Shown piece after piece: positions 1 through 23,394 of a stretch of 33,325 nucleotides of DNA. Under the pieces are notes generated by a model. It was not told the DNA's origin and made no database searches. It saw only the letters and a list, made by a program, of their open reading frames with translations. A program made the translations under genes and the position numbers. Every line of letters begins with the position of its first letter. The first letter of the stretch is position 1. Origin of the DNA: Pseudomonadales bacterium (GTDB lineage Bacteria; Pseudomonadota; Gammaproteobacteria; Pseudomonadales; Pseudohongiellaceae); assembly GCA_022821865.1 (NCBI GenBank), contig JAJECW010000032.1:1-33325 (forward strand), in the 5' to 3' direction.

Positions 1-18
1 TTAAGTCAGAGCTTCCCT

Positions 19-132
19 GCGGCACATGGAAGTGCCGCCGAATTCGATGGCGTAAGCCATTGAATTCGGGAGCAAAACAAAACCACGCTTTTGTTTTGCG
101 ATAATGAAAAACTCCACGGATGGAGTTTTTCA
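19..132 (+). repeat. Four-hairpin structured element, copy A
   Basis: Four consecutive hairpins can be folded by hand. HP1 spans 19-38 (7 bp, loop AUGGAA). HP2 spans 39-68 (13 bp with one G-U pair, GUAA tetraloop at 52-55). HP3 spans 72-99 (11 bp, GCAAAACAAAA pairing across loop CCACGC). HP4 spans 105-132 (12 bp, loop CGGA). The element matches 21369-21482 with no gaps, about 80 percent identical by hand count. HP3 is identical in both copies. Five pairs differ by compensating changes on both sides (20/37, 41/66, 45/62, 109/128, 112/125). One reading frame that is open through copy B meets a TAA at 53-55 here, so a conserved peptide is unlikely. It lies upstream of lpoA, but about 160 bases separate it from the likely start. 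Its function is unknown to me. Confidence 0.85.
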
Positions 133-294
133 GAGAATACCCAGGAGCCTGCGCCGTAAGTTCGCTGCATTTCGGAACGGCCCTTGAGAAATTTCGCGCG
201 AAAATTTGGCGCTGCGGCTTGTCCTGTATTAGGCTTTCCGTGGCGCCGCCGGTTGGCTGGCGCAGTTGCCTGTTTTCGGCGCTCGGGGTTTCCC
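133..294. other. Intergenic stretch before lpoA, no feature recognised
   Basis: No gene, RNA or clear promoter can be supported here. The lpoA frame is open back to a TTG at 184, so a longer N-terminus cannot be excluded. An AGGAG at 143-147 is not followed by a plausible start codon at normal spacing. Confidence 0.4.
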
Positions 295-2073
295 TTGACT
301 GTTTTACGATTCATGTTTTTGTCTGCGCTGCTGGGACTTGCGGGCTGTGGCGGGTCCGGCGGGATGCGGGATACGGCGGTGGTTGGACCGGCTCGGGACG
401 CTGTGGCGGTCTTGCTGGCTGAGGCCGATGCCGCCATTGGCGTGGAAGCCGCCTTGTTGCGGATGGAAGCGGCCGGGCGGCTGCTGGAAGAAGGGAGACT
501 TGAGGAAGCGGTTGCGGTTGCCGATTCCGCGCTTTCTCCGCCGGTGGAACTGGCAACCCGGCTTGCGCTGTTGCGAACCCGCATCAGCCTGGCGGCGAGC
601 GATGCCGCCGGAGCCATGGCGCGGCTGCGTGAAACCGCGCCGCCGGCCAGGGGGGAAGAAGAGTTTATCGACTACCACCTGCTGCTCGGCGACGCGGCCA
701 GCGCCCTGGACCAGCCCCGGCAGGCCATTACCGCCTGGACCGAGGCGGCCATTTTGCTCGATGGCGAGCCGGGCGAGGAGGTGCGCCGCAAGATCTGGGC
801 GACGCTGGAAAGCCGCAGCGCCCGGGAACTGGAGGAAATGGCCGCCGCGAGCACGAGCTATGAATTGCGGGGCTGGGTCGAGCTTGCCCGGGTGGTGGAC
901 TCCGGCGAGCACAGCATTCCGCGGCAACTGGAGTCGCTGGTGAACTGGCGCCGGGCCTGGGAACAGCACTCGGCGGCGCGGCAATTGCCGGAGCAGTTGC
1001 GCCAGCTAGAGGCGGCCTGGGATGAACGACCGCGCCATATCGCCCTGATGCTGCCCCTGGGCGAGGCGGCCGGCGCGGCGATTCAGCAGGGGTTTCTCGC
1101 GGGTTACTACGAGGCCCTGGCGGTTTCCCGGGAGGTGCCGCGCATTTCGCTGTTTGATTCCACCGGTGCCGCCGATATTCGTCCGTTGTACCAGCAGGCG
1201 GTGGATTCCGGCGCCGACCTGATTGTGGGGCCGCTGTTCAAGGAACTGGTCAACCAACTGTTTGCCGCCGGAGAATTGCCGGCGCCGACCCTGGCGTTGA
1301 ACTATACCGACGCGGAACCGCCTGTCGGCGAAGGCAGGCTGTTCCAGTTCGCCCTGGCGCCGGAAGATGAAATCGATGCGGTCATCGACCTTGCCCTTGC
1401 GTCGGGCCATCGCAATGCGGCGGTCATCTATCCGGCCAACGATGTCTTCCTGCGCCTGCAGAACATCTTCGCCGAACGCTGGCAGGCCCGGGGCGGCGAG
1501 TTTGTGGCCCGGGCGGCCTATCTCGGCGGCGGCGATTTCACCGAAGTGGTCAAGACCGTTCTCGATATCGACGCCAGCGAGGCGCGGCTTGCCCGGCTGC
1601 TCGACATCCTGCCCCGCTCGAATGTGGAGTTCACGCCCCGGCGGCGGCGGGATATCGACTTCATCTTCCTGATGGCGAATCCCCAGGTGGGGCGGCAGAT
1701 CAAGCCCGCGCTCGATTTCTACTACGCCGAAGACCTGCCGGTTTTCGCCCTGCCCTCGATTTACGACGGCGCCGAGAATCCCGAAAGCAACCGCGACCTG
1801 AACGGGGTGATTTTCGCCGACGCCCCCCTGATGTGGCTGAATGAAGATCCGGCGCTTGCCGCCAGCGGAGCGGAGCGCAGGCTGCAGGCCATGGGAATCG
1901 ACAGCTTCCGATTGTATCCCCGCCTTGGCCAGTTCCTGCGGGGGCAGGTCACGAGCCTGCGCGGCGCCACGGGAGAGCTGCGCATGGAAGACAATCGCCG
2001 GATTCACCGCCGGCTCACGCCGGGGCGATTCGAGAACGGCATCGCCGTGCCACTGGCGGAACCCGGCGCCTGA
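295..2073 (+). CDS. lpoA: Penicillin-binding protein activator LpoA (outer membrane lipoprotein)
   Basis: LpoA is an outer membrane lipoprotein that reaches through peptidoglycan to stimulate PBP1A. The product starts with a lipoprotein signal ending in LAGC, followed by Gly/Ser. An alpha-helical, Ala/Leu/Glu-rich TPR-like region covers roughly residues 30-240. A C-terminal periplasmic-binding-protein-like domain follows (HIALMLPLG, DLIVGPLFKE, FRLYPRLGQF). The family identity also fits the next gene, yraN. Start choice: TTG at 295 gives MTVLRF before the hydrophobic stretch and a GGGG 8 bases upstream. ATG at 313 gives a signal of only 11 residues without a positive charge, and TTG at 184 would put a long Arg-rich leader before the signal. 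The function is well supported; the start is uncertain. Confidence 0.88.
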   Translation: MTVLRFMFLSALLGLAGCGGSGGMRDTAVVGPARDAVAVLLAEADAAIGVEAALLRMEAAGRLLEEGRLEEAVAVADSALSPPVELATRLALLRTRISLAASDAAGAMARLRETAPPARGEEEFIDYHLLLGDAASALDQPRQAITAWTEAAILLDGEPGEEVRRKIWATLESRSARELEEMAAASTSYELRGWVELARVVDSGEHSIPRQLESLVNWRRAWEQHSAARQLPEQLRQLEAAWDERPRHIALMLPLGEAAGAAIQQGFLAGYYEALAVSREVPRISLFDSTGAADIRPLYQQAVDSGADLIVGPLFKELVNQLFAAGELPAPTLALNYTDAEPPVGEGRLFQFALAPEDEIDAVIDLALASGHRNAAVIYPANDVFLRLQNIFAERWQARGGEFVARAAYLGGGDFTEVVKTVLDIDASEARLARLLDILPRSNVEFTPRRRRDIDFIFLMANPQVGRQIKPALDFYYAEDLPVFALPSIYDGAENPESNRDLNGVIFADAPLMWLNEDPALAASGAERRLQAMGIDSFRLYPRLGQFLRGQVTSLRGATGELRMEDNRRIHRRLTPGRFENGIAVPLAEPGA

Positions 2074-8956: not shown

Positions 8957-11900
8957 TCAGGCCTTTTGCAGCATGGTCCGCGCAGGCTCCCAGACCCGGA
9001 ACACCTTGATTACTTCGTCGCCGAGGTGGTTGATGACCTTCACGGCAATACGGCCCGTGGCGGGCTTCGGGAAGGGGCGCGACAGGTCGCTGTTGAGGCT
9101 GTCCCAGGCTTCGCGGTTGATTTCGGCTTTCAGGGTGGTCTTGAGCGACTTGTACGGGTCGTTGGCGCCGAGGAAATAGACGTGACGGACGAAGAAGCTT
9201 TCCTGATCGTAGTCGGTGTCGATGAACCAGCAGGCGATGTCGGCGGCGGCGCTTGAGCGGATTTCGCCGGATTGCGGGTGGAATACGTCAACGCCCTTGA
9301 GCTTGACCTGTATCCGGTCGTCTTCCAGGTCGAGGATTTCGATGTCGGGTTCGCCAAAGACGACGAAGAGATTGCCCTTGCCGGTGTTCTTGAGGTCCCT
9401 GGCCATGTGCAGGTCGGCGTTCATCCGCGCCTTGAGCACGGGGATTCTGCCGAGCTTGTGGAATTCCGAGGCGTGGGCATCGAAATTGAAGGCGCAGGCG
9501 ATGAGTACCTCGAATCCCGCCTCCGCGGCTTCCCTCGCGGCCTCAACAAGGTCAGCCCGGGCGACCGTGCCGAATTCTGGCCCAATGAAGATACCCGCCC
9601 GGAATTCCTTGCCGTCGCCATGGTTTCCTTCGCCGTAATCCCGTTTGGAACCCCCATCCCCACCATTCTTCGCGGAGCTCCCTTGCCTGTCATTCTGCGC
9701 GGAGCGAAGCGGAGTCGCAGAATCTCCCCGGCCTTCCTCTTGCCCTCCCGAAGCCGATTCCCCCCGGCCCGACCCGCCCTCCAAATATCGCCCCTCCGCA
9801 CAAATAAGCTCCCCAGGCCATGGGATTAGCGAAGAGAAGTCGATCTTGCCCTGCTTGTCGGCCTGCTGGACGCCAGCGGTTTTCAGGTTTTCCAGAATAA
9901 TCCGCGCGAAATCGGCTTCGCGGCCGTACACGGGGCCGGGCTCGGCGACCTGGTCCTCGACGAAGTCGCCGTCCTCATCGACTTTCAACTCGCGATGGGG
10001 CGACAGGCTTTCCACCGTGAAAGGCCCGGCCACGCGAACGACTTTCCTGTCCTCATGCGGCTTGTCGTAGAGGTATTCGTAATCTGCCCTGACGGCGATG
10101 GATGCGTCGATTTCCCGCTGCCGGGCGATACGGGCGTTCCAGAATCGTTCGAGCGGTTCCCGGGTCGCTTCGGGCCAGTCCGCCGGCGCTTCCCGGGGGA
10201 CTTCCCATTCCAGCAGTTTGCCGGCGGCAACCACATCCCCCGAGGGAAGCACCCGGGGTTCGGTCTGCTTCGCATCAAAGCGGACGGGCTTTCCCTGCCA
10301 GCCGCCGGTGCTGACGGTGAAGGCTTGTGGGTGTCCCTTGAGGGAATCGTTCAGCGCGGCGAGGCCGGCCTCGACTTCAGGCTGCAAGCGTTCGTAAATG
10401 ACGTCGATTTCGGCGTTGTTGGCGATGGACTTCAGTGTAATGTGGGGGACGCGCTCGTAAACGAAGCCCTGCCGAATGTCGGCGCTTGATGGTGAATAAG
10501 ATGACTGACTGACTGACTGACTGACTGACTGACTGACTGACTGAGCAAGTTCCGTGCCAGAAAGCTCGGCTTCCTTCGCTTTTCCTTCGGGGCTGTCGGC
10601 GAGGAGGTAGAACGGATAGCGGGCGCCCATGATGCGGGCCCGGGCGAGCGCGAGGGAAACTCGGGACGTGTCGATGGTGATCCAGCGGCGGCCCCATTGT
10701 TCGGCGACATAGGCGGTGGTGCCTGAGCCACAGGTTGGGTCGAGTATGAGGTCCCCCGGATCTGTGGTCATTTGAATACAACGCTCGATCACTTTGGTTC
10801 GAGTTTCAACAACGTACCGTTGTTCTTGAATAAATCCTGAAGTATCTTTCCAAACTTCTGAAATTACTTTGAGAGGGTAGTCATCGATAAAATACTTCCA
10901 GCGAATTTTCTTCCCAGATTTAACTATACGCCCAGACTTCTTTAGATAATTCATTCCATTGGGGTAAGTCAATTTCCAGTGACTATTACCACTTGGTCTG
11001 AAAATTTCTCCTTCAAATTCGAATGGAGTGTCTTCTGATGCAGGATTTGAACTTTCCAAGCTCACTACTCGCAAAATTCGTGCCAGTGGATAATGACGAC
11101 TTGGTTCATCTATTTCTTCGGCACTTAATACCCGTAGAGACAAGTCCGGCAATTCAACTAACTTGTAGAAACTATCTGGCTTTTTGGGGGAAAATAGTTG
11201 GCGGTACTTTGCATGTTCCTTACTTTTGGCATACCAAATCAAGTAATCGCTGGTTCTTCCTAGTTCTCCGGAAACCATACTCCCCGTCTTTGCGAAAACA
11301 ATCTGCCGAACAAAATTGCCCTCCCCAAAAACCTCGTCCATCACCGCCCGAACCCGATGCACATTCTCATCACCAATCTGCACGAACACCGAGCCGCTTT
11401 CCGTCAGCAATTCCCGCGCCACGGTGAGCCGGTCCCGGAGATAGCCGAGATACGAGTGAATCCCGTCGCGCCAGGTGTCGCGGAAAGCCTTGACCTGCTC
11501 GGGCTCCCGGGTGATGTGTTCGGCCCTGCCGTCCTTGACGTCGCGGCTGGTGGTGGACCACTGGAAATTCGAGTTGAACCTGATGCCATAAGGCGGGTCG
11601 ATATAGATGCACTGGACCTTGCCGCGCAGTCCTTCGCGCTCGGCGAAGGAGGCCATGACCCGGAGGCTGTCGCCGAGAATCATGCGGTTCGACCAGTTGG
11701 CGTCGTGGCGGTAGAACTCGGTTTTGGCGTGTTCGTCCGGCAGGCCGTTGAAATCGGAAAACAGGTCGATCTGGGATTCGGCGGCCTTCCCGTCCGCCTC
11801 GGTGCGGCGCGCGAGATCGTCCACGAGCGCCTTGGGATGGACTTTCTCCTGGATGTACAGCGGCGGCGCATTCACCACCAAATCCGCCTCGTCCTGCGCG

Positions 11901-12088
11901 TCCTTGCCGCGCCAGACGAGCTGGGGGTCAAGATCGCGGTTGCGGCGCTCGTAGGCAACCCGCAAAGGCGACTTCTGTTCCGGCTCGATCAGGGGCTCGG
12001 CTTCCGCCGTGGGAATATTCCTGCGGGTGGCGTCCCGATGCCTGAGCGTCTCCACCGTCTTGTTCTTCGACTTCTTGCCCTTCGGCAT
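8957..12088 (-). CDS. Type III-like DNA methyltransferase (Mod), phase-variable
   Basis: A 1043-residue adenine/cytosine-N4 methyltransferase with the beta-class motif order. DPPY is at 164-167 and DPTCGSGTT (AdoMet motif I) at 450-458, with a long specificity region between them. Residues 516-530 are a Q-S-V-S repeat encoded by a 43-base tetranucleotide tract. Beyond it are about 510 further residues with no catalytic motif I recognise; these large Mod proteins accompany 1000-residue helicase-nuclease Res partners. About 55 Gly/Ser-rich residues (about 769-825) interrupt the C-terminal half and contain a dispersed palindromic repeat in frame. DNA for residues about 256-431 is AT-rich, unlike the rest. 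ATG at 12086-12088 has GGAG upstream. res lies upstream in the same orientation. Confidence 0.92.
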   Translation of the reverse strand: MPKGKKSKNKTVETLRHRDATRRNIPTAEAEPLIEPEQKSPLRVAYERRNRDLDPQLVWRGKDAQDEADLVVNAPPLYIQEKVHPKALVDDLARRTEADGKAAESQIDLFSDFNGLPDEHAKTEFYRHDANWSNRMILGDSLRVMASFAEREGLRGKVQCIYIDPPYGIRFNSNFQWSTTSRDVKDGRAEHITREPEQVKAFRDTWRDGIHSYLGYLRDRLTVARELLTESGSVFVQIGDENVHRVRAVMDEVFGEGNFVRQIVFAKTGSMVSGELGRTSDYLIWYAKSKEHAKYRQLFSPKKPDSFYKLVELPDLSLRVLSAEEIDEPSRHYPLARILRVVSLESSNPASEDTPFEFEGEIFRPSGNSHWKLTYPNGMNYLKKSGRIVKSGKKIRWKYFIDDYPLKVISEVWKDTSGFIQEQRYVVETRTKVIERCIQMTTDPGDLILDPTCGSGTTAYVAEQWGRRWITIDTSRVSLALARARIMGARYPFYLLADSPEGKAKEAELSGTELAQSVSQSVSQSVSQSSYSPSSADIRQGFVYERVPHITLKSIANNAEIDVIYERLQPEVEAGLAALNDSLKGHPQAFTVSTGGWQGKPVRFDAKQTEPRVLPSGDVVAAGKLLEWEVPREAPADWPEATREPLERFWNARIARQREIDASIAVRADYEYLYDKPHEDRKVVRVAGPFTVESLSPHRELKVDEDGDFVEDQVAEPGPVYGREADFARIILENLKTAGVQQADKQGKIDFSSLIPWPGELICAEGRYLEGGSGRGESASGGQEEGRGDSATPLRSAQNDRQGSSAKNGGDGGSKRDYGEGNHGDGKEFRAGIFIGPEFGTVARADLVEAAREAAEAGFEVLIACAFNFDAHASEFHKLGRIPVLKARMNADLHMARDLKNTGKGNLFVVFGEPDIEILDLEDDRIQVKLKGVDVFHPQSGEIRSSAAADIACWFIDTDYDQESFFVRHVYFLGANDPYKSLKTTLKAEINREAWDSLNSDLSRPFPKPATGRIAVKVINHLGDEVIKVFRVWEPARTMLQKA
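9689..9727. repeat. Palindromic repeat inserted in frame within mod
   Basis: GTCATTCTGCGCGGAGCGAA and the following bases to AGAATC match the intergenic copy at 18489-18526 with one difference. The ends ATTCTGCG/CGCAGAAT can pair. Read on the mod strand it encodes SATPLRSAQNDRQG (about residues 788-800) and leaves the frame open. It sits within a low-complexity Gly/Ser/Glu insert. Confidence 0.85.
10502..10544. repeat. Tetranucleotide tract (AGTC on the mod strand, 10.75 units)
   Basis: A perfect period-4 run, (TGAC)n on the plus strand, equals (AGTC)n on the coding strand. It encodes Q-S-V-S repeats in mod. The same unit occurs in the phase-variable mod of Haemophilus influenzae, but near the 5' end there; here it lies near codon 515 of 1043. 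Gain or loss of one unit shifts the frame. Both other frames also read S-V-S-Q through the tract and stop at about 10432 and 10377. Confidence 0.95.
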
Positions 12089-12618: not shown

Positions 12619-15600
12619 TCAATAGCCGCTTGCCAGATCCAGCTTGTCTTGCCACAGGGCGTCGAATTCGTCCTGCATCGAGTATACATCAGTGAATTCG
12701 GCAAAGGCCCAGCGGCCGAAGCCGCGGTGCCTGTTGACTCCCGGAATCCATTGGGCGTCCATCGTGTTCTTCTTGTCGATGGCGTCTTCGCCACGGAATC
12801 CCTTGATCTCCACCACGAGATGCAGCGGGTTTTCCGGCCCGCGACCATCGTCGATGAGGACGATGAAATCGGGGATGTATCGGCGCATTTCGGATTTTTT
12901 GCGATAGGGCACTTCGAAACCGAGATTGTGGTTCTTGACCCAGGCGAGCACCCGGGGATGGGAGTCGGCGATGCGGCAGAATTCGCCCTCCCAGGAACTG
13001 TCCAGAATCGCCCAGTTGACATGGCAGCGGCGCGGGTCGGTTTCGTAGCGGCTTTCCTTGCTCGTGGTGAAATTCACCTGCCGGGTTGTGCCGGTTGGGT
13101 TGTAAGGGTCAAGCAGGGCCTGGACGGGCTTTTTGTCCAACTGCGAAAGCAGGATCGCCGAATTGATTCGCTCACAGGCCTGGTCGGCGAGAATCCGGTA
13201 AAGCAAATGCCCCGGATAAATCCCTCCCGCGCAGCTCAGACATTCGTCGAGCCATTGCATGGCGATTCGCCGGAACTGGCCGAACAGGTGCAGTTTGGGC
13301 AAGCCCTGGGTATCCATGGACTTCGATTGAGCATCGTCAGGGGATTCCGCTTTTTGCTCTCCCGGGCTGTCCAACCAGCGGGAATACAGCAGGTGTCTGG
13401 CGAGATGGTAGGCGATTTCCTGTTTTCTGGTGTTTTTCAGATGCTCCGGCGACAGTTCGATGTCTTCGCCGATGATGCCGGCATTCCGGGTTCGGGTGGG
13501 CCCTACCAGGTCCGGAGTCAGGCGCAGCCGGGAGTCGGCATTGAACTTCGCCTTGAGTTTTTCCCGCGGCAATTCGACCCGGTAGCCAACCACTCTGGGG
13601 AAACGAATCTCAAGAGCGTCCCGCTCCGGCGTCACGGCCTTGACCTGGATCGTCTTGCGGGGCGGCTGGGGCTTGACCACCACGGGCCTTGCGGTGAAAT
13701 CGAAGGGGATGCCGAAAACATCGGCGTACTCGACGTTGAACAAGTTGCTTTCGTTCAATTCGTAGGATTGGCGGCGCAAGGCCCGGCCCACGACTTGCTC
13801 ACAGAGAAGTTGTGTGCCGAAGGCGCGGACGCCAAGCACATGGGTGACGGTATTCGCATCCCAGCCTTCGGTCAGCATAGAGACCGAAACTACGCAGCGA
13901 ATTGAGCCACCGAGCCGGCCAGGCTTGCCGACAGTGTTCATCACTTCCCGCAGCAAATCCTGGTCGGTAAGCTTTTCCGCCCTGGACTTGTCGCCGGTGC
14001 GAGTCGTGATCTCACGGCGGAACTGTTCGATCTCATCGGCGGCCAGATTGCGGAAGTTCTTGTCAAGCGCCTCACCGGATTCCAGTTGATTGCTGTCGAT
14101 CAGAAGCGTTCTGGGCCGTGGAATCGCATGCCCTTCCTCGTCAAAGTTGCGAAATAGCTCAAGGCGGCCATTTTCGACGACATACTCCCCATCTTCCAGC
14201 TCGCGGCGAAATCCGGAAACATAGTCGTAGACCAGTCTGGACGTGGCCATGTTGTTGCACACCACGATAAAGCAGGGCGGAGACTCGATGTTCGCTTCCC
14301 GCCATTGTTCGAAGATCTTCCGGTAATGGCCATACAAGGCATCCAGCGCCGATATCAATTGCGACGGAAGATGATGCGGGTCAAGCCCGTCGAGGTTTCC
14401 ACCACCCTTCTTGGGCATTTTCTTGCCGATGTGATCCCAAAGCTTGCGAAAGACCGGCATTTCAGCCTCGGGCACATTGTCTGCGATCGGCACTCTCGGC
14501 AGCTTGACGATGCCGCACTCGATGGCGTCCATCAGAGAAAAATCGCTTGCGGTCCAGGGAAACAGCGTGCCCTCGGCATAGCCGGAACCACTGAGAAAGA
14601 ACGGCGTGGCGGACAGATCGATCACCCGGGAGAGTTTCAGCTTGCGGTTGGCGGCTTCGAGACCTGAAATCCATAGTCGCGCCGCTTCGCGGTTCTTTTC
14701 CGCCTCCTTCCTGTCATCGCCTTTCAAGGCGCCTTCTTCGGATTGGGTTTCAGGCTTTTCACGATAGCAGTGATGGGCTTCGTCATTGATCGCGAGGATG
14801 TTCTTCATCGACAGGAGTTCAGACAGGACACGCCGCAGCATCTGGCCTTCGCTTTCGAGTGTGACGGGGTCTTCCCCACGCCGACCCTTTAGAAGCGCGC
14901 GATTGCCCCTGGACATCTGGACGCGTTCCCGCCGCCTGAAGGCATGGTAGTTGGTGATGACGATTTTCGCCTGACCGAGTTCGCGCAGCATGTCCTGGGG
15001 CACGAGTTCGCGGCTCTGGTAGTAGCTGTCCGGGTCATTCGGCTGCAGTACCCGGAGCCGGTCGCGAATCGTGATTCCCGGAGTGACGATCAGGAAACCT
15101 TTGGTAAATCGGTTGCTTTGCGGTTGCCGCACCGCGTTGATCGTCTGCCAGGCAATCAGCATCGCCATCACAGTAGTCTTGCCGGCGCCGGTGGCCATCT
15201 TGAGGGCGAGACGCATCAACTCTGGATTGGCTTCCCTGCTGGCACTGCTCAGTTGTTCGAGGATTTCCCTACCTTTGCTGCCCGCATGGGGCGCGACTTC
15301 GGTAAGCCAGATCGCGGTTTCCGCCGCTTCCACCTGGCAGAAAAAAGGGCGAATGCCGCTGAAATCATGCTTACGCCAGTGCTGGAGTAGTCGCGCCGTT
15401 GCCGGAGTTACCCGCCACTGGTTCGGATTGGGTAGCGCGCGCCAGTTGTCGACCCGCTGGCGCACGCTGTTGATGAGCGCAGCAGTGCGGTCGTACTGCT
15501 GCTTTTCGTCGGACAGGCCGGTTCCGGTGTCGAGTTTGAGTCCGGCGCTGCCCGGAGGACTCCCCTTTTTCATTTTGGCGCTCGGGACGGCGGTCACAAA

Positions 15601-15783
15601 ATCCGCGCGGCGGCGAGTCTCGGCGATTTTCCCCGTAGGCTGGCCTGAATCATCAAGCTCCCAGTGCCGTGCGGGATAGTCGTAGGGAGAGTTGAGAATC
15701 GGCTGATCGAAGAACTGGCTGTCCAAGACTTTCCGTGCTCCTGCTGGGGAAACGAAATCCGCTCGCATCATATTGCCGATCAA
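12619..15783 (-). CDS. Type III-like restriction helicase-endonuclease (Res)
   Basis: A protein of about 1054 residues with SF2 helicase motifs: MATGAGKT (196-203, Walker A), DEAH (334-337), SATP (391-394), TEGWDANTV (638-646) and QVVGRALRR (663-671). The C-terminus holds a PD-(D/E)xK nuclease core: PDF at 971 and VEIK near 991-994. It resembles the large Res proteins sometimes called the BPTD_3080 family. It would translocate on or track DNA and cleave it with the mod product. The gene order res then mod is the reverse of classical type III operons. The start is unclear: TTG at 15781-15783 or ATG at 15769-15771. The frame is blocked by TGA shortly upstream, and repeats follow directly, so N-terminal loss is possible. 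Confidence 0.9.
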   Translation of the reverse strand: MIGNMMRADFVSPAGARKVLDSQFFDQPILNSPYDYPARHWELDDSGQPTGKIAETRRRADFVTAVPSAKMKKGSPPGSAGLKLDTGTGLSDEKQQYDRTAALINSVRQRVDNWRALPNPNQWRVTPATARLLQHWRKHDFSGIRPFFCQVEAAETAIWLTEVAPHAGSKGREILEQLSSASREANPELMRLALKMATGAGKTTVMAMLIAWQTINAVRQPQSNRFTKGFLIVTPGITIRDRLRVLQPNDPDSYYQSRELVPQDMLRELGQAKIVITNYHAFRRRERVQMSRGNRALLKGRRGEDPVTLESEGQMLRRVLSELLSMKNILAINDEAHHCYREKPETQSEEGALKGDDRKEAEKNREAARLWISGLEAANRKLKLSRVIDLSATPFFLSGSGYAEGTLFPWTASDFSLMDAIECGIVKLPRVPIADNVPEAEMPVFRKLWDHIGKKMPKKGGGNLDGLDPHHLPSQLISALDALYGHYRKIFEQWREANIESPPCFIVVCNNMATSRLVYDYVSGFRRELEDGEYVVENGRLELFRNFDEEGHAIPRPRTLLIDSNQLESGEALDKNFRNLAADEIEQFRREITTRTGDKSRAEKLTDQDLLREVMNTVGKPGRLGGSIRCVVSVSMLTEGWDANTVTHVLGVRAFGTQLLCEQVVGRALRRQSYELNESNLFNVEYADVFGIPFDFTARPVVVKPQPPRKTIQVKAVTPERDALEIRFPRVVGYRVELPREKLKAKFNADSRLRLTPDLVGPTRTRNAGIIGEDIELSPEHLKNTRKQEIAYHLARHLLYSRWLDSPGEQKAESPDDAQSKSMDTQGLPKLHLFGQFRRIAMQWLDECLSCAGGIYPGHLLYRILADQACERINSAILLSQLDKKPVQALLDPYNPTGTTRQVNFTTSKESRYETDPRRCHVNWAILDSSWEGEFCRIADSHPRVLAWVKNHNLGFEVPYRKKSEMRRYIPDFIVLIDDGRGPENPLHLVVEIKGFRGEDAIDKKNTMDAQWIPGVNRHRGFGRWAFAEFTDVYSMQDEFDALWQDKLDLASGY

Positions 15784-21368: not shown

Positions 21369-21482
21369 GTGGCACAAGGATGTGCCACCGGATTTAGTGG
21401 CGCAAGCCAGTAAATCCGTGAGCAAAACAAAACCACGCTTTTGTTTTGCGTTAGAGAACAATTCCAAGGATGGAATTGTTCG
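21369..21482 (+). repeat. Four-hairpin structured element, copy B, between cysD and cysNC
   Basis: The positions correspond to copy A at a constant offset of 21350. HP1 is 21369-21388 (8 bp, loop AGGA). HP2 is 21389-21418 (13 positions, one G-G mismatch, GCAA tetraloop). HP3 is 21422-21449 (identical to copy A). HP4 is 21456-21481 (11 bp, loop AGGA). HP1 displays ACAAGGATGT, close to the CsrA in-vitro-selected consensus RUACARGGAUGU, and HP4 displays AAGGA. The cysNC ribosome-binding site GGAG (21482-21485) begins right after HP4, so folding or protein binding could affect translation of cysNC. A transcript from cysD would include it. Confidence 0.85.
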
Positions 21483-21492
21483 GAGAAACCAA

Positions 21493-23394
21493 ATGAACCA
21501 GCAACCCGACCTGGCCCAGGCCGACATCAAGGCTTACCTCGCCCAGCACGAGCGCAAGGAACTGCTGCGCTTTCTCACCTGCGGCAGCGTCGATGACGGC
21601 AAGAGCACCCTCATCGGCCGGCTGCTCCACGATTCCAAGCTGATTTACGAGGATCAGCTCGCCGCCATCGAAGCCGACAGCCTGCGCTCGGGCGGCCTCG
21701 ACGGCAAGCTCGACCTGTCCCTGCTCGTGGACGGCCTCCAGGCCGAGCGCGAGCAGGGCATCACCATTGATGTGGCCTACCGCTATTTCTCCACCGCGAA
21801 GCGCAAGTTCATCATCGCCGACACGCCGGGCCACGAGCAGTACACCCGCAACATGGCCACCGGCGCCTCCAACTGCGACCTCGCGATCATCCTCATCGAC
21901 GCCCGCCACGGCGTGCTCACCCAGACCCGGCGGCACAGCTTCATCGTCTCCCTGCTCGGCATCCAGCAGGTGATCGTGGCGGTGAACAAGATGGATCTGG
22001 TGGATTACGCCGAAGACGTCTTCAACCGCATTCGCGAGGAGTATCTCGCCTTCAGCGCGGGACTCGAAGGCATTGAACCGCATTTCATTCCGCTATCCGC
22101 CAAACATGGCGACAATGTGGTCCATGCCAGTCCGGCAATGCCCTGGCACCAGGGCAAGGCGCTGATGACCATGCTGGAAACCGTGGAGCTTTCCGCCAGC
22201 CGCAACTTCGCCGACTTCCGCTTTCCGGTGCAGTACGTCAACCGGCCCAATCTCAATTTCCGCGGCTACTGCGGCACCGTCGCCTCGGGCGTGGTGCGCA
22301 AGGGCGACGAAGTGGTGGTGCTGCCTTCGGGCCGCAAGAGCCGCATCAAGTCCATTGTCACCTACGATGAGGAACTCGAACTCGCCTGGGCCAATATGGC
22401 GGTAACCCTGACCCTGGAACACGAAATCGATCTCGGCCGCGGCGACCTGATCGCCCATCCCGACAATTCCCCCGCCGGAGGCGACCGCCTCGACGCCAGC
22501 GTGGTGTGGATGGCGGAGGACCCGCTTCTCCCCGGAGTGCGATACGAAATCAAGCTCGGCGCCCGCAGCGTGATCGGCACGGTGAAATCCGTGCGCCATG
22601 TGGTGGATATCTCCAGTCTTGCCGAGCGCTCCGCCGCCAGGCTCGAACTGAATGAAATCGGCCGGCTCGACATCGCCCTCGAACAGGCGGTGCATTTCGA
22701 CAGCTATCGGGACAACCGCGCCACCGGCGGATTCATCCTCATCGACCGGCTTTCGAATGTCACCGTGGGCGCCGGCATGATTCATTGTGAACACGCCCGG
22801 GAGGACGCCCCGGCGGTCAGCGCAAGCGGCCATGTGAGCGGCAGCGAGCGCGCGGCGCGCTTTGGCCAGCGGCCCGTGACGGTCATGTTCATTGGCGTCT
22901 CCGGTTCGGGCAAGTCGACACTCGCCCATGCCCTGGAAAGGCGACTGTTCGACCTTGGCCGCTTCAGCACCGTGCTGGACGGCAAGGCCATGCGCCTCGG
23001 CATCAGCCGCGACCTGCCGCACGACGCCGAGGGCCGCGCAGAGAACCTGCGCCGCAGCGCCCATGTGGCGCGCTTTGTGAATGATTCCGGGCTGATTTGC
23101 TGCGCCGCTTTCGTGGCGCCCAACGAAGACTCACGGGAGCACGCCATCAGCGTGATCGGCCGGCGCAACTGCTTTCTGGTCTATCTCAACCCGCCGCTGG
23201 AAGTCTGCATGCAACGCGACCCGAGCGGGCTGTACGCCGCCGCCAGGGAAAACGAATCCGCGCATGTGCCGGGGCTTTCCTTTCCCTACCGCCCCCCCGC
23301 CGAGCCCTGGCTGGAGCTGGACACCAGCGCGCTTTCCATCAAAGCCTGCGTGGATCAGGTGCTTGCGCGACTCGAAGAAGAACAGGTAGTCTGA
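21493..23394 (+). CDS. cysNC: Bifunctional sulfate adenylyltransferase subunit 1 / APS kinase (CysNC)
   Basis: A 633-residue fusion. Residues about 1-440 are the CysN GTPase: GSVDDGKST (31-39), [12 protein letters not shown] and NKMDLVDY, plus beta-barrel domains. Residues about 455-633 are the CysC APS kinase: P-loop GVSGSGKST (468-476), [19 protein letters not shown] and [13 protein letters not shown]. In the kinase the usual DGDNVRHGL reads DGKAMRLGI; related pseudomonad fusions also depart here, so activity is likely but not certain. ATG at 21493 has GGAG seven bases upstream. The same frame is open back to the cysD stop, but only across the repeated element, which is not conserved as protein. 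Confidence 0.96.

Follow-up and report, generated by a model that had tools for sequence, protein, structure and literature searches.

A MITE with a conserved four-hairpin RNA cassette that carries two predicted CsrA/RsmA-type binding hairpins

Results

Two copies of a four-hairpin element in one contig

The DNA analysed here, hereafter the window, is a stretch of 33,325 nucleotides at the start of a contig (JAJECW010000032.1) of a Pseudohongiellaceae genome, which we call the source genome. It carries two copies of an element made of four hairpins (HP1 to HP4), copy A lying 5′ of a gene for an LppC/LpoA-type lipoprotein and copy B lying between cysD-like and cysN-like genes. The features referred to below are as follows, by window position and strand.

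1-18 (+), right arm and remaining loop bases of HP0, the palindrome at the 5′ end of the mobile form; in complete copies the same sequence gives GGGAAGCTCTGATTAAGTCAGAGCTTCCC
19-38 (+), copy A HP1: 7-bp stem, loop AUGGAA (ANGGAX, CsrA-type)
39-68 (+), copy A HP2: 13-bp stem, GNRA loop (GUAA)
72-99 (+), copy A HP3: 11-bp stem, loop CCACGC, with GA at 70-71 and GA at 100-101
106-131 (+), copy A HP4: 10-bp stem, loop ACGGAU (ANGGAX, CsrA-type)
133-140 (+), 3′ tail GAGAATAC, the right end of the mobile element
184-2073 (+), LppC/LpoA-type lipoprotein gene 3′ of copy A (PF04348, E = 3.8e-85); the first in-frame start is TTG, perhaps not the true start
8957-12088 and 12619-15783 (-), DNA methylase ORF (N6_N4_Mtase) of 1043 aa and an adjoining ORF of 1054 aa
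20398-21306 (+), cysD-like gene 5′ of copy B (PF01507, E = 1.3e-58)
21369-21388 (+), copy B HP1: loop AAGGAU (ANGGAX)
21389-21418 (+), copy B HP2: GCAA loop (GNRA), stem with one mismatch
21422-21449 (+), copy B HP3
21456-21481 (+), copy B HP4: loop AAGGAU (ANGGAX)
21482-21485 (+), GGAG where the element tail would be, likely the Shine-Dalgarno sequence of cysN, with 7 nt between it and the ATG at 21493
21493-23394 (+), cysN/cysNC-like gene directly 3′ of copy B (PF00009, PF01583)

The left arm of HP0 falls outside the window because the contig begins at position 1, and the CCAG directly after the tail of copy A occupies the position expected for a target duplication. The methylase and its 1054-aa neighbor form a pair that, by position only, appears restriction- or defence-like.

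An initial annotation of this DNA had described copies A and B as aligning without gaps, with about 22 differences that mostly preserve base pairing. Our pairwise realignment of A (19-132) with B (21369-21482), 114 bases each, gave no gaps and exactly 22 differing positions, 13 of which fall in paired columns. In five pairs both partners have changed and pairing is retained (20/37, 41/66, 45/62, 109/128 and 112/125), the G-U at 46/61 has become A-U, and 47/60 is the sole pair lost, all as had been claimed. By comparison, 22 random substitutions break a mean of 11.5 pairs, with one or fewer broken in 0 of 100,000 simulations, and at least five double compensations arise by chance with a simulated P of 0.0001. 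The annotation was also right that the loop of HP2 is of the GNRA type (GUAA in A, GCAA in B) and that a frame open through B (GCG CAA) meets a stop in A (GCG TAA), which together with the compensatory changes disfavors a coding sequence. Its account of the element's four hairpins stands, but it missed the HP0 palindrome, the 3′ tail and the CsrA/RsmA-type loops.

Selection for pairing and the RNA strand

The four hairpins are under selection for pairing, and the covariation suggested by the two copies proved strong in a wider alignment. Among 20 sequences, both-side changes occur in 28 of 41 pairs and 98.6% of cells are paired; among 54 distinct sequences, such changes occur in 36 of 37 pairs. 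Because fitting the alignments to the structure works in its favor, shuffles and slides serve as controls: of the cells in the 54 sequences 94.8% are paired, against no more than 45.6% with slid partners, and for each of five measures 0 of 500 shuffles scored as high. G·U cells outnumber A·C cells by 59 to 19 when one poorly paired column pair is set aside (60 to 25 with that pair), which indicates that the RNA is the plus-sense strand as written.

Ends, target duplications and shortened forms

The mobile form is about 151 bp long (150-152 bp) and runs from GGAAGC to AATAC, with the palindrome HP0 (GGGAAGCTCTGATTAAGTCAGAGCTTCCC) at the start of complete copies and GAGAATAC after HP4 at their end. 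Among 30 complete copies from the source genome and three relatives, 17 have identical flanking 4-mers, where 6.7 are expected and 0 of 20,000 shuffles gave as high a count. The commonest target site is YTAG, and 9 of the 17 exact duplications are not CTAG. Any terminal inverted repeats are imperfect, with 8 of 11 bases shared between the right end and the left end when inverted. By its size and target duplications the element is a MITE, that is, a short non-coding element with defined ends and a target-site duplication. The initial annotation had wavered between a structured RNA family and a hairpin-rich mobile element, and both descriptions apply, since target-site duplications and a covarying RNA core occur in the same MITE. 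Movement of the HUH/RAYT type, which proceeds without duplication, is disfavored by the matching flanking 4-mers.

Forms of other lengths also occur. An 80-bp form in which HP1, HP2 and HP3 are not intact is found at four places, with exact duplications at two of them, and a 99-bp form without HP1-HP2 is found at two. Shortened forms lacking intact HP1-HP3 have thus still moved, so HP1 is probably not needed for movement, and the two end regions seem to suffice. All deleted forms found keep HP4, which could therefore serve transposition, although the search required both ends and forms without HP0 or HP4 were invisible to it; pieces without HP0 (HP3-HP4, or HP4 alone) are present too. A 223-bp form with an enlarged HP2 lies at two places (L182:14075-14303 and L191:13048-13269), where about 72 additional bases form a branched arm on HP2.

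The ends GGAAGC..TTAAG and the YTAR-like target duplication resemble features of the IS5 group, a candidate mobilizer. No inverted pair of the same ends, such as would mark a parent element, was found within the available stretches of 24 PF01609 loci in six genomes, several of which are cut by contig ends; the source assembly is broken at repeats. Some of the loci match the end sequence once, L201 doing so with one mismatch. Another dispersed palindrome, GCGCAGGCTCCTAGGAGCCTGCGC, is a repeated insertion target of the element (window positions 143-156 and the flanks of L012, L032 and L235), and half of it adjoins copy A on the 3′ side.

Copy number and spread

Further genomic copies of the family proposed by the initial annotation are abundant, with at least 40 matches each for queries A and B in the source genome (3.38 Mb, 153 contigs), many of them at contig ends, and at least 64 for a structure model, R1. 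Stretches of five copy-carrying contigs, 400 kb in all, hold 22 matched places, complete or partial, with two long forms counted twice. Matches to R1 occur in 12 of 58 genomes, source genome included: at least 64 in the source genome, 64 in G029, 38 in G032, 37 in G020, 32 in G036, 6 in G021, and 1-3 in each of six others. The weak matches have the identical layout with other stem sequences; one R1 match (L059, in G051) is not member-like and was excluded from the loop and orientation tallies of related elements.

A second model, R2, places the element in at least 17 of 244 genomes of the order (source genome included), in 11 of 113 genera and in nine families by our count. This is a lower bound because only the best 14 candidates per genome were scored, under strict filters, and in three of the 17 genomes (G079, G234, G262) the matches are short or degraded. 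Nine genomes were reached via named loci, and one of these matched, that of Marinobacterium sedimentorum OS208, with 29 matches. In the 20 of these 29 that were read by eye there are at least three stem variants, and the ends mostly appear to be TA-TTAACCCGG...CCGGGTTAA-TA, whereas the family of copies A and B (hereafter the A/B family) has GGAAGC with YTAG. The different ends and common core layout indicate that one RNA layout is carried on different transposon ends. The exact HP3 core gave 0 matches in viral contigs.

Loops of the outer hairpins and the CsrA machinery

In 44 distinct A/B-family sequences from six genomes, the outer loops follow a single pattern, ANGGAX, in which the four fixed bases are constant in HP4 (44 of 44 at each) and nearly so in HP1 (A in 44, the first G in 43, the second G in 44 and A in 44). 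Position N is filled by four different bases and X by three, and HP2 is GNRA. One study proposes that the high-affinity CsrA/RsmE site is an ANGGAX hexaloop seated directly on a stem and free to vary at N and X, with weaker binding when N is missing; ACGGAU, the HP4 loop of copy A, is also the hexaloop of the RsmE-bound hcnA hairpin (PMC4005645). Two such loops on stems are a feature of the A/B family and only partly of its relatives. About 90 nt separate the HP1 and HP4 candidate sites.

A tally of 36 elements that have other stems, five of them partial (L162-L164, L174 and L175), finds GGA in HP1 in 31, in HP4 in 30 and in both hairpins in 27; of the middle loops, 5 of 70 have it. HP1 keeps the exact ANGGAX hexaloop on a C-G pair in 27 of the 36, while HP4 is looser, with the exact hexaloop in 8 and an AGGAX pentaloop in 11 more. 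GGA has been lost from HP1 in five of these elements and from HP4 in six, and one Marinobacterium variant, read by eye, has CGGGAC as its HP4 loop. The GNRA loop of HP2 is limited to the A/B family, HP2 of the 36 related elements not being GNRA.

The source genome has one csrA match (PF02599, E = 8.9e-25), and the translated CsrA has L4 and R44, residues that are named as important for RsmE binding in another paper (PMC4950607). In 433 kb of this genome (the window and stretches of five contigs, a sample chosen because it carries copies), 1360 hairpins have a stem of at least 7 pairs and a 6-base loop; ANGGAX occurs in 32 of them, of which 28 are the element when sorted by eye. The CsrB and RsmZ models gave nothing above cut-off in the source genome. 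The best match to the RsmZ model (G000:C87:6005-6123, 26.3 bits, sub-threshold) overlaps an element copy, a weak sign because sub-threshold RsmZ matches are also present in 2 of 14 control genomes.

Position relative to genes

None of the 45 distinct copies in the source genome lies within a called gene, copy B being flagged only since the caller extends cysN upstream, while five run 2-97 bases into the end of a called frame. The following gene has the direction of the copy in 21 cases and the opposite direction in 14, with no call for 10 (P = 0.31). This orientation bias is not significant, as expected of neutral insertion, and is a counterpoint to a reading that involves CsrA.

In the related families, the element tends to share the direction of the next gene, which is co-directional for 34 of 49 elements, opposite for 12 and without a call for 3 (P = 0.0016; partial elements L162-L164, L174 and L175, as well as L050, were left out of this tally). 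Marinobacterium contributes 20 of the 49 (12 versus 6, two without a call), and the other 29 divide into 22 co-directional and 6 opposite, with one lacking a call. Between co-directional neighbors, related elements are sense in 22 cases and antisense in 7, the corresponding numbers in the source genome being 7 and 4. Three of the 49 fell within a called frame. Gene neighbors were taken from a hexamer-score script in the source genome and from the longest open frames elsewhere.

CysN of the window is 69% identical to CysN of a Pseudohongiella MAG, which makes Pseudohongiellaceae the probable family. In the cysD-cysN spacer, the element of G029 is reduced to HP1-HP2, with a changed HP1 loop, and G032 has no element; thus, the copy at this site is not long-conserved. 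An ancestral, conserved cysN leader was considered and rejected, as the six closest spacers comprise a B-like element in the source genome, a shortened one in G029 and, by eye, none in four. This comparison drew on 30 cysN loci from 61 genomes of the genus, 24 of the 30 being represented only by the length of the spacer and its initial 40 bases downstream of the cysD stop, and R1 was run on 34 of 80 cysN loci. The two genes abut in L070 and L116. In another species (G020, locus L257), the spacer holds a different repeat-like stretch with CTACAGGGATGTA, which is also CsrA-like.

Comparison with known RNAs and repeats

No Rfam family reached its gathering threshold in the window, in keeping with the annotation's view of an unfamiliar element, or in 15 loci with related elements. 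Lax matches to mir-135, TCV_H4, TD-2 and, on the 223-bp form, ivy-DE were judged to reflect generic hairpins, and copy A gave no informative Rfam match. The best match of copy B is RsmW (RF02809) with 24.5 bits (E = 0.015), well below the 52 bits of its gathering threshold, so that copy B falls short of membership. RsmW itself occurs in 2 of the 244 genomes of the order, both of one genus with one match each, and has no match in the source genome. Like the element, CsrA/RsmA-binding sRNAs (RsmW, and also RsmZ and CsrB) have several hairpins, the outer ones with GGA loops, and one paper gives a Kd of 11.5 nM for binding of RsmA by RsmW (PMC4950607). Unlike RsmW, the element is mobile and high-copy, its HP3 is flanked by GA, and in the A/B family HP2 has a GNRA loop.

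The MITEs ERIC, Correia/NEMIS and RUP resemble the element in being 100-200 bp long, non-autonomous and present in high copy, with target duplications and stem-loop transcripts. Bacterial MITEs have mostly been described as long stem-loops formed by end pairing, with CIR having two arms (PMC2229807). In contrast to ERIC- and NEMIS-type MITEs, the element described here consists of four separate covarying hairpins with loops that look like protein sites. REPs, described as single palindromes of 20-40 bp (PMC3733652), share with it the trait of dispersed extragenic palindromes. The 20-40 bp, GTAG/CGTC-tagged palindrome that characterizes REP and BIME sequences is not what is found here, the element being about 151 bp long with four hairpins and 4-bp duplications. 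The TwoAYGGAY RNA motif (Weinberg 2010) is reportedly distinguished by two AYGGAY terminal loops. Its listed range covers the human gut, gammaproteobacteria and Clostridiales (PMC2864571). The matches listed at gathering threshold for the window, and up to an E value of 10 for copies A and B, do not include TwoAYGGAY.

Discussion

We propose that this MITE carries a conserved RNA cassette with two predicted CsrA/RsmA-type binding hairpins, which would act in untranslated regions and possibly also as a distributed CsrA sponge. We give this reading a probability of roughly two in three. When host transcription passes through a copy, the resulting RNA would fold and, as we infer from the loop sequences, CsrA would bind HP1 and HP4. 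Where the copy lies in a 5′ UTR, as copy B does before cysN, bound CsrA might block ribosomes from the GGAG beside HP4 or modulate their access to it, and copies elsewhere could together titrate CsrA. A transposase acting in trans would move the element and would need only the two end regions.

The alternative with most to recommend it holds that the element is a purely selfish MITE or REP-like repeat, the hairpins and loops of which are read by the transposition machinery as single-stranded DNA or RNA, so that the likeness to CsrA sites is coincidental. Clear target duplications would be expected of such an element, as would its intergenic positions and non-significant orientation bias in the source genome, and the retention of HP0, HP4 and the tail in the deleted forms found, by a search that required both ends, agrees with it. 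Nevertheless, we consider this explanation unlikely. HP1 is probably dispensable for movement, yet across 44 sequences its loop is conserved except for one base, and the Marinobacterium ends, as read by eye, differ from those of the A/B family (TTAACCCGG with TA versus GGAAGC with YTAG) while the core layout is common to both. Moreover, the GNRA loop of the A/B family and the excess of G·U indicate RNA, and the orientation bias in relatives speaks against a purely selfish element as well.

It is also conceivable that what has been amplified is the gene of an Rsm-like, CsrA-titrating sRNA, with the copies being sRNA genes or pseudogenes and not a UTR element. The four hairpins and the GGA of the outer loops are indeed RsmW-like, and the best, sub-cut-off RsmZ-model match in the source genome overlaps a copy. 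However, copies in both orientations are found near and between genes, and we regard this origin as quite improbable. Finally, a structured RNA acting by a route other than CsrA, for example on mRNA stability or RNase processing as proposed for ERIC and NEMIS (precedents in PMC2229807), would suit the very stable hairpins of copies A and B and the 22 to 7 preponderance of sense over antisense related elements in co-directional gene pairs, but it is very improbable, as it leaves unexplained why GGA is constant in the outer loops beside varying N and X.

If the two hairpins are indeed CsrA sites, a broader scenario can be put forward, though somewhat more tentatively than an even bet would allow. 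The two-site cassette, carried in several families on MITEs with different ends, may constitute a post-transcriptional regulon dispersed by transposons, in which new genes such as cysN are wired into CsrA control. In genomes with high copy numbers, the element might supply most of the strong CsrA-type hairpins and so form a genome-wide sponge that replaces, or works beside, sRNAs of the CsrB/RsmZ type. Transposons that scatter transcription-factor sites are familiar, and we found no bacterial mobile element in the literature searched that scatters the sites of a global RNA-binding protein. That search, the coverage of which leaves out most subscription papers, likewise yielded no MITE described as having CsrA sites, and the term "CsrA" is absent from the main text of a 2024 MITE review (PMC10969869). 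If the proposal is true, the element is a natural experiment on how a CsrA regulon grows and on how cells cope with very many competing sites. Marinobacterium sedimentorum strain OS208, as a named carrier with an isolate-type record, should allow these ideas to be tested.

One further arrangement concerns csrA itself. A 72-bp deleted form, consisting of HP0 and HP4 with the loop AGGGAG, lies about 115 nt 5′ of csrA in the source genome (L039:1315-1386, on G000:C40), where the csrA leader is already GGA-rich and the inserted form adds a CsrA-type hairpin.
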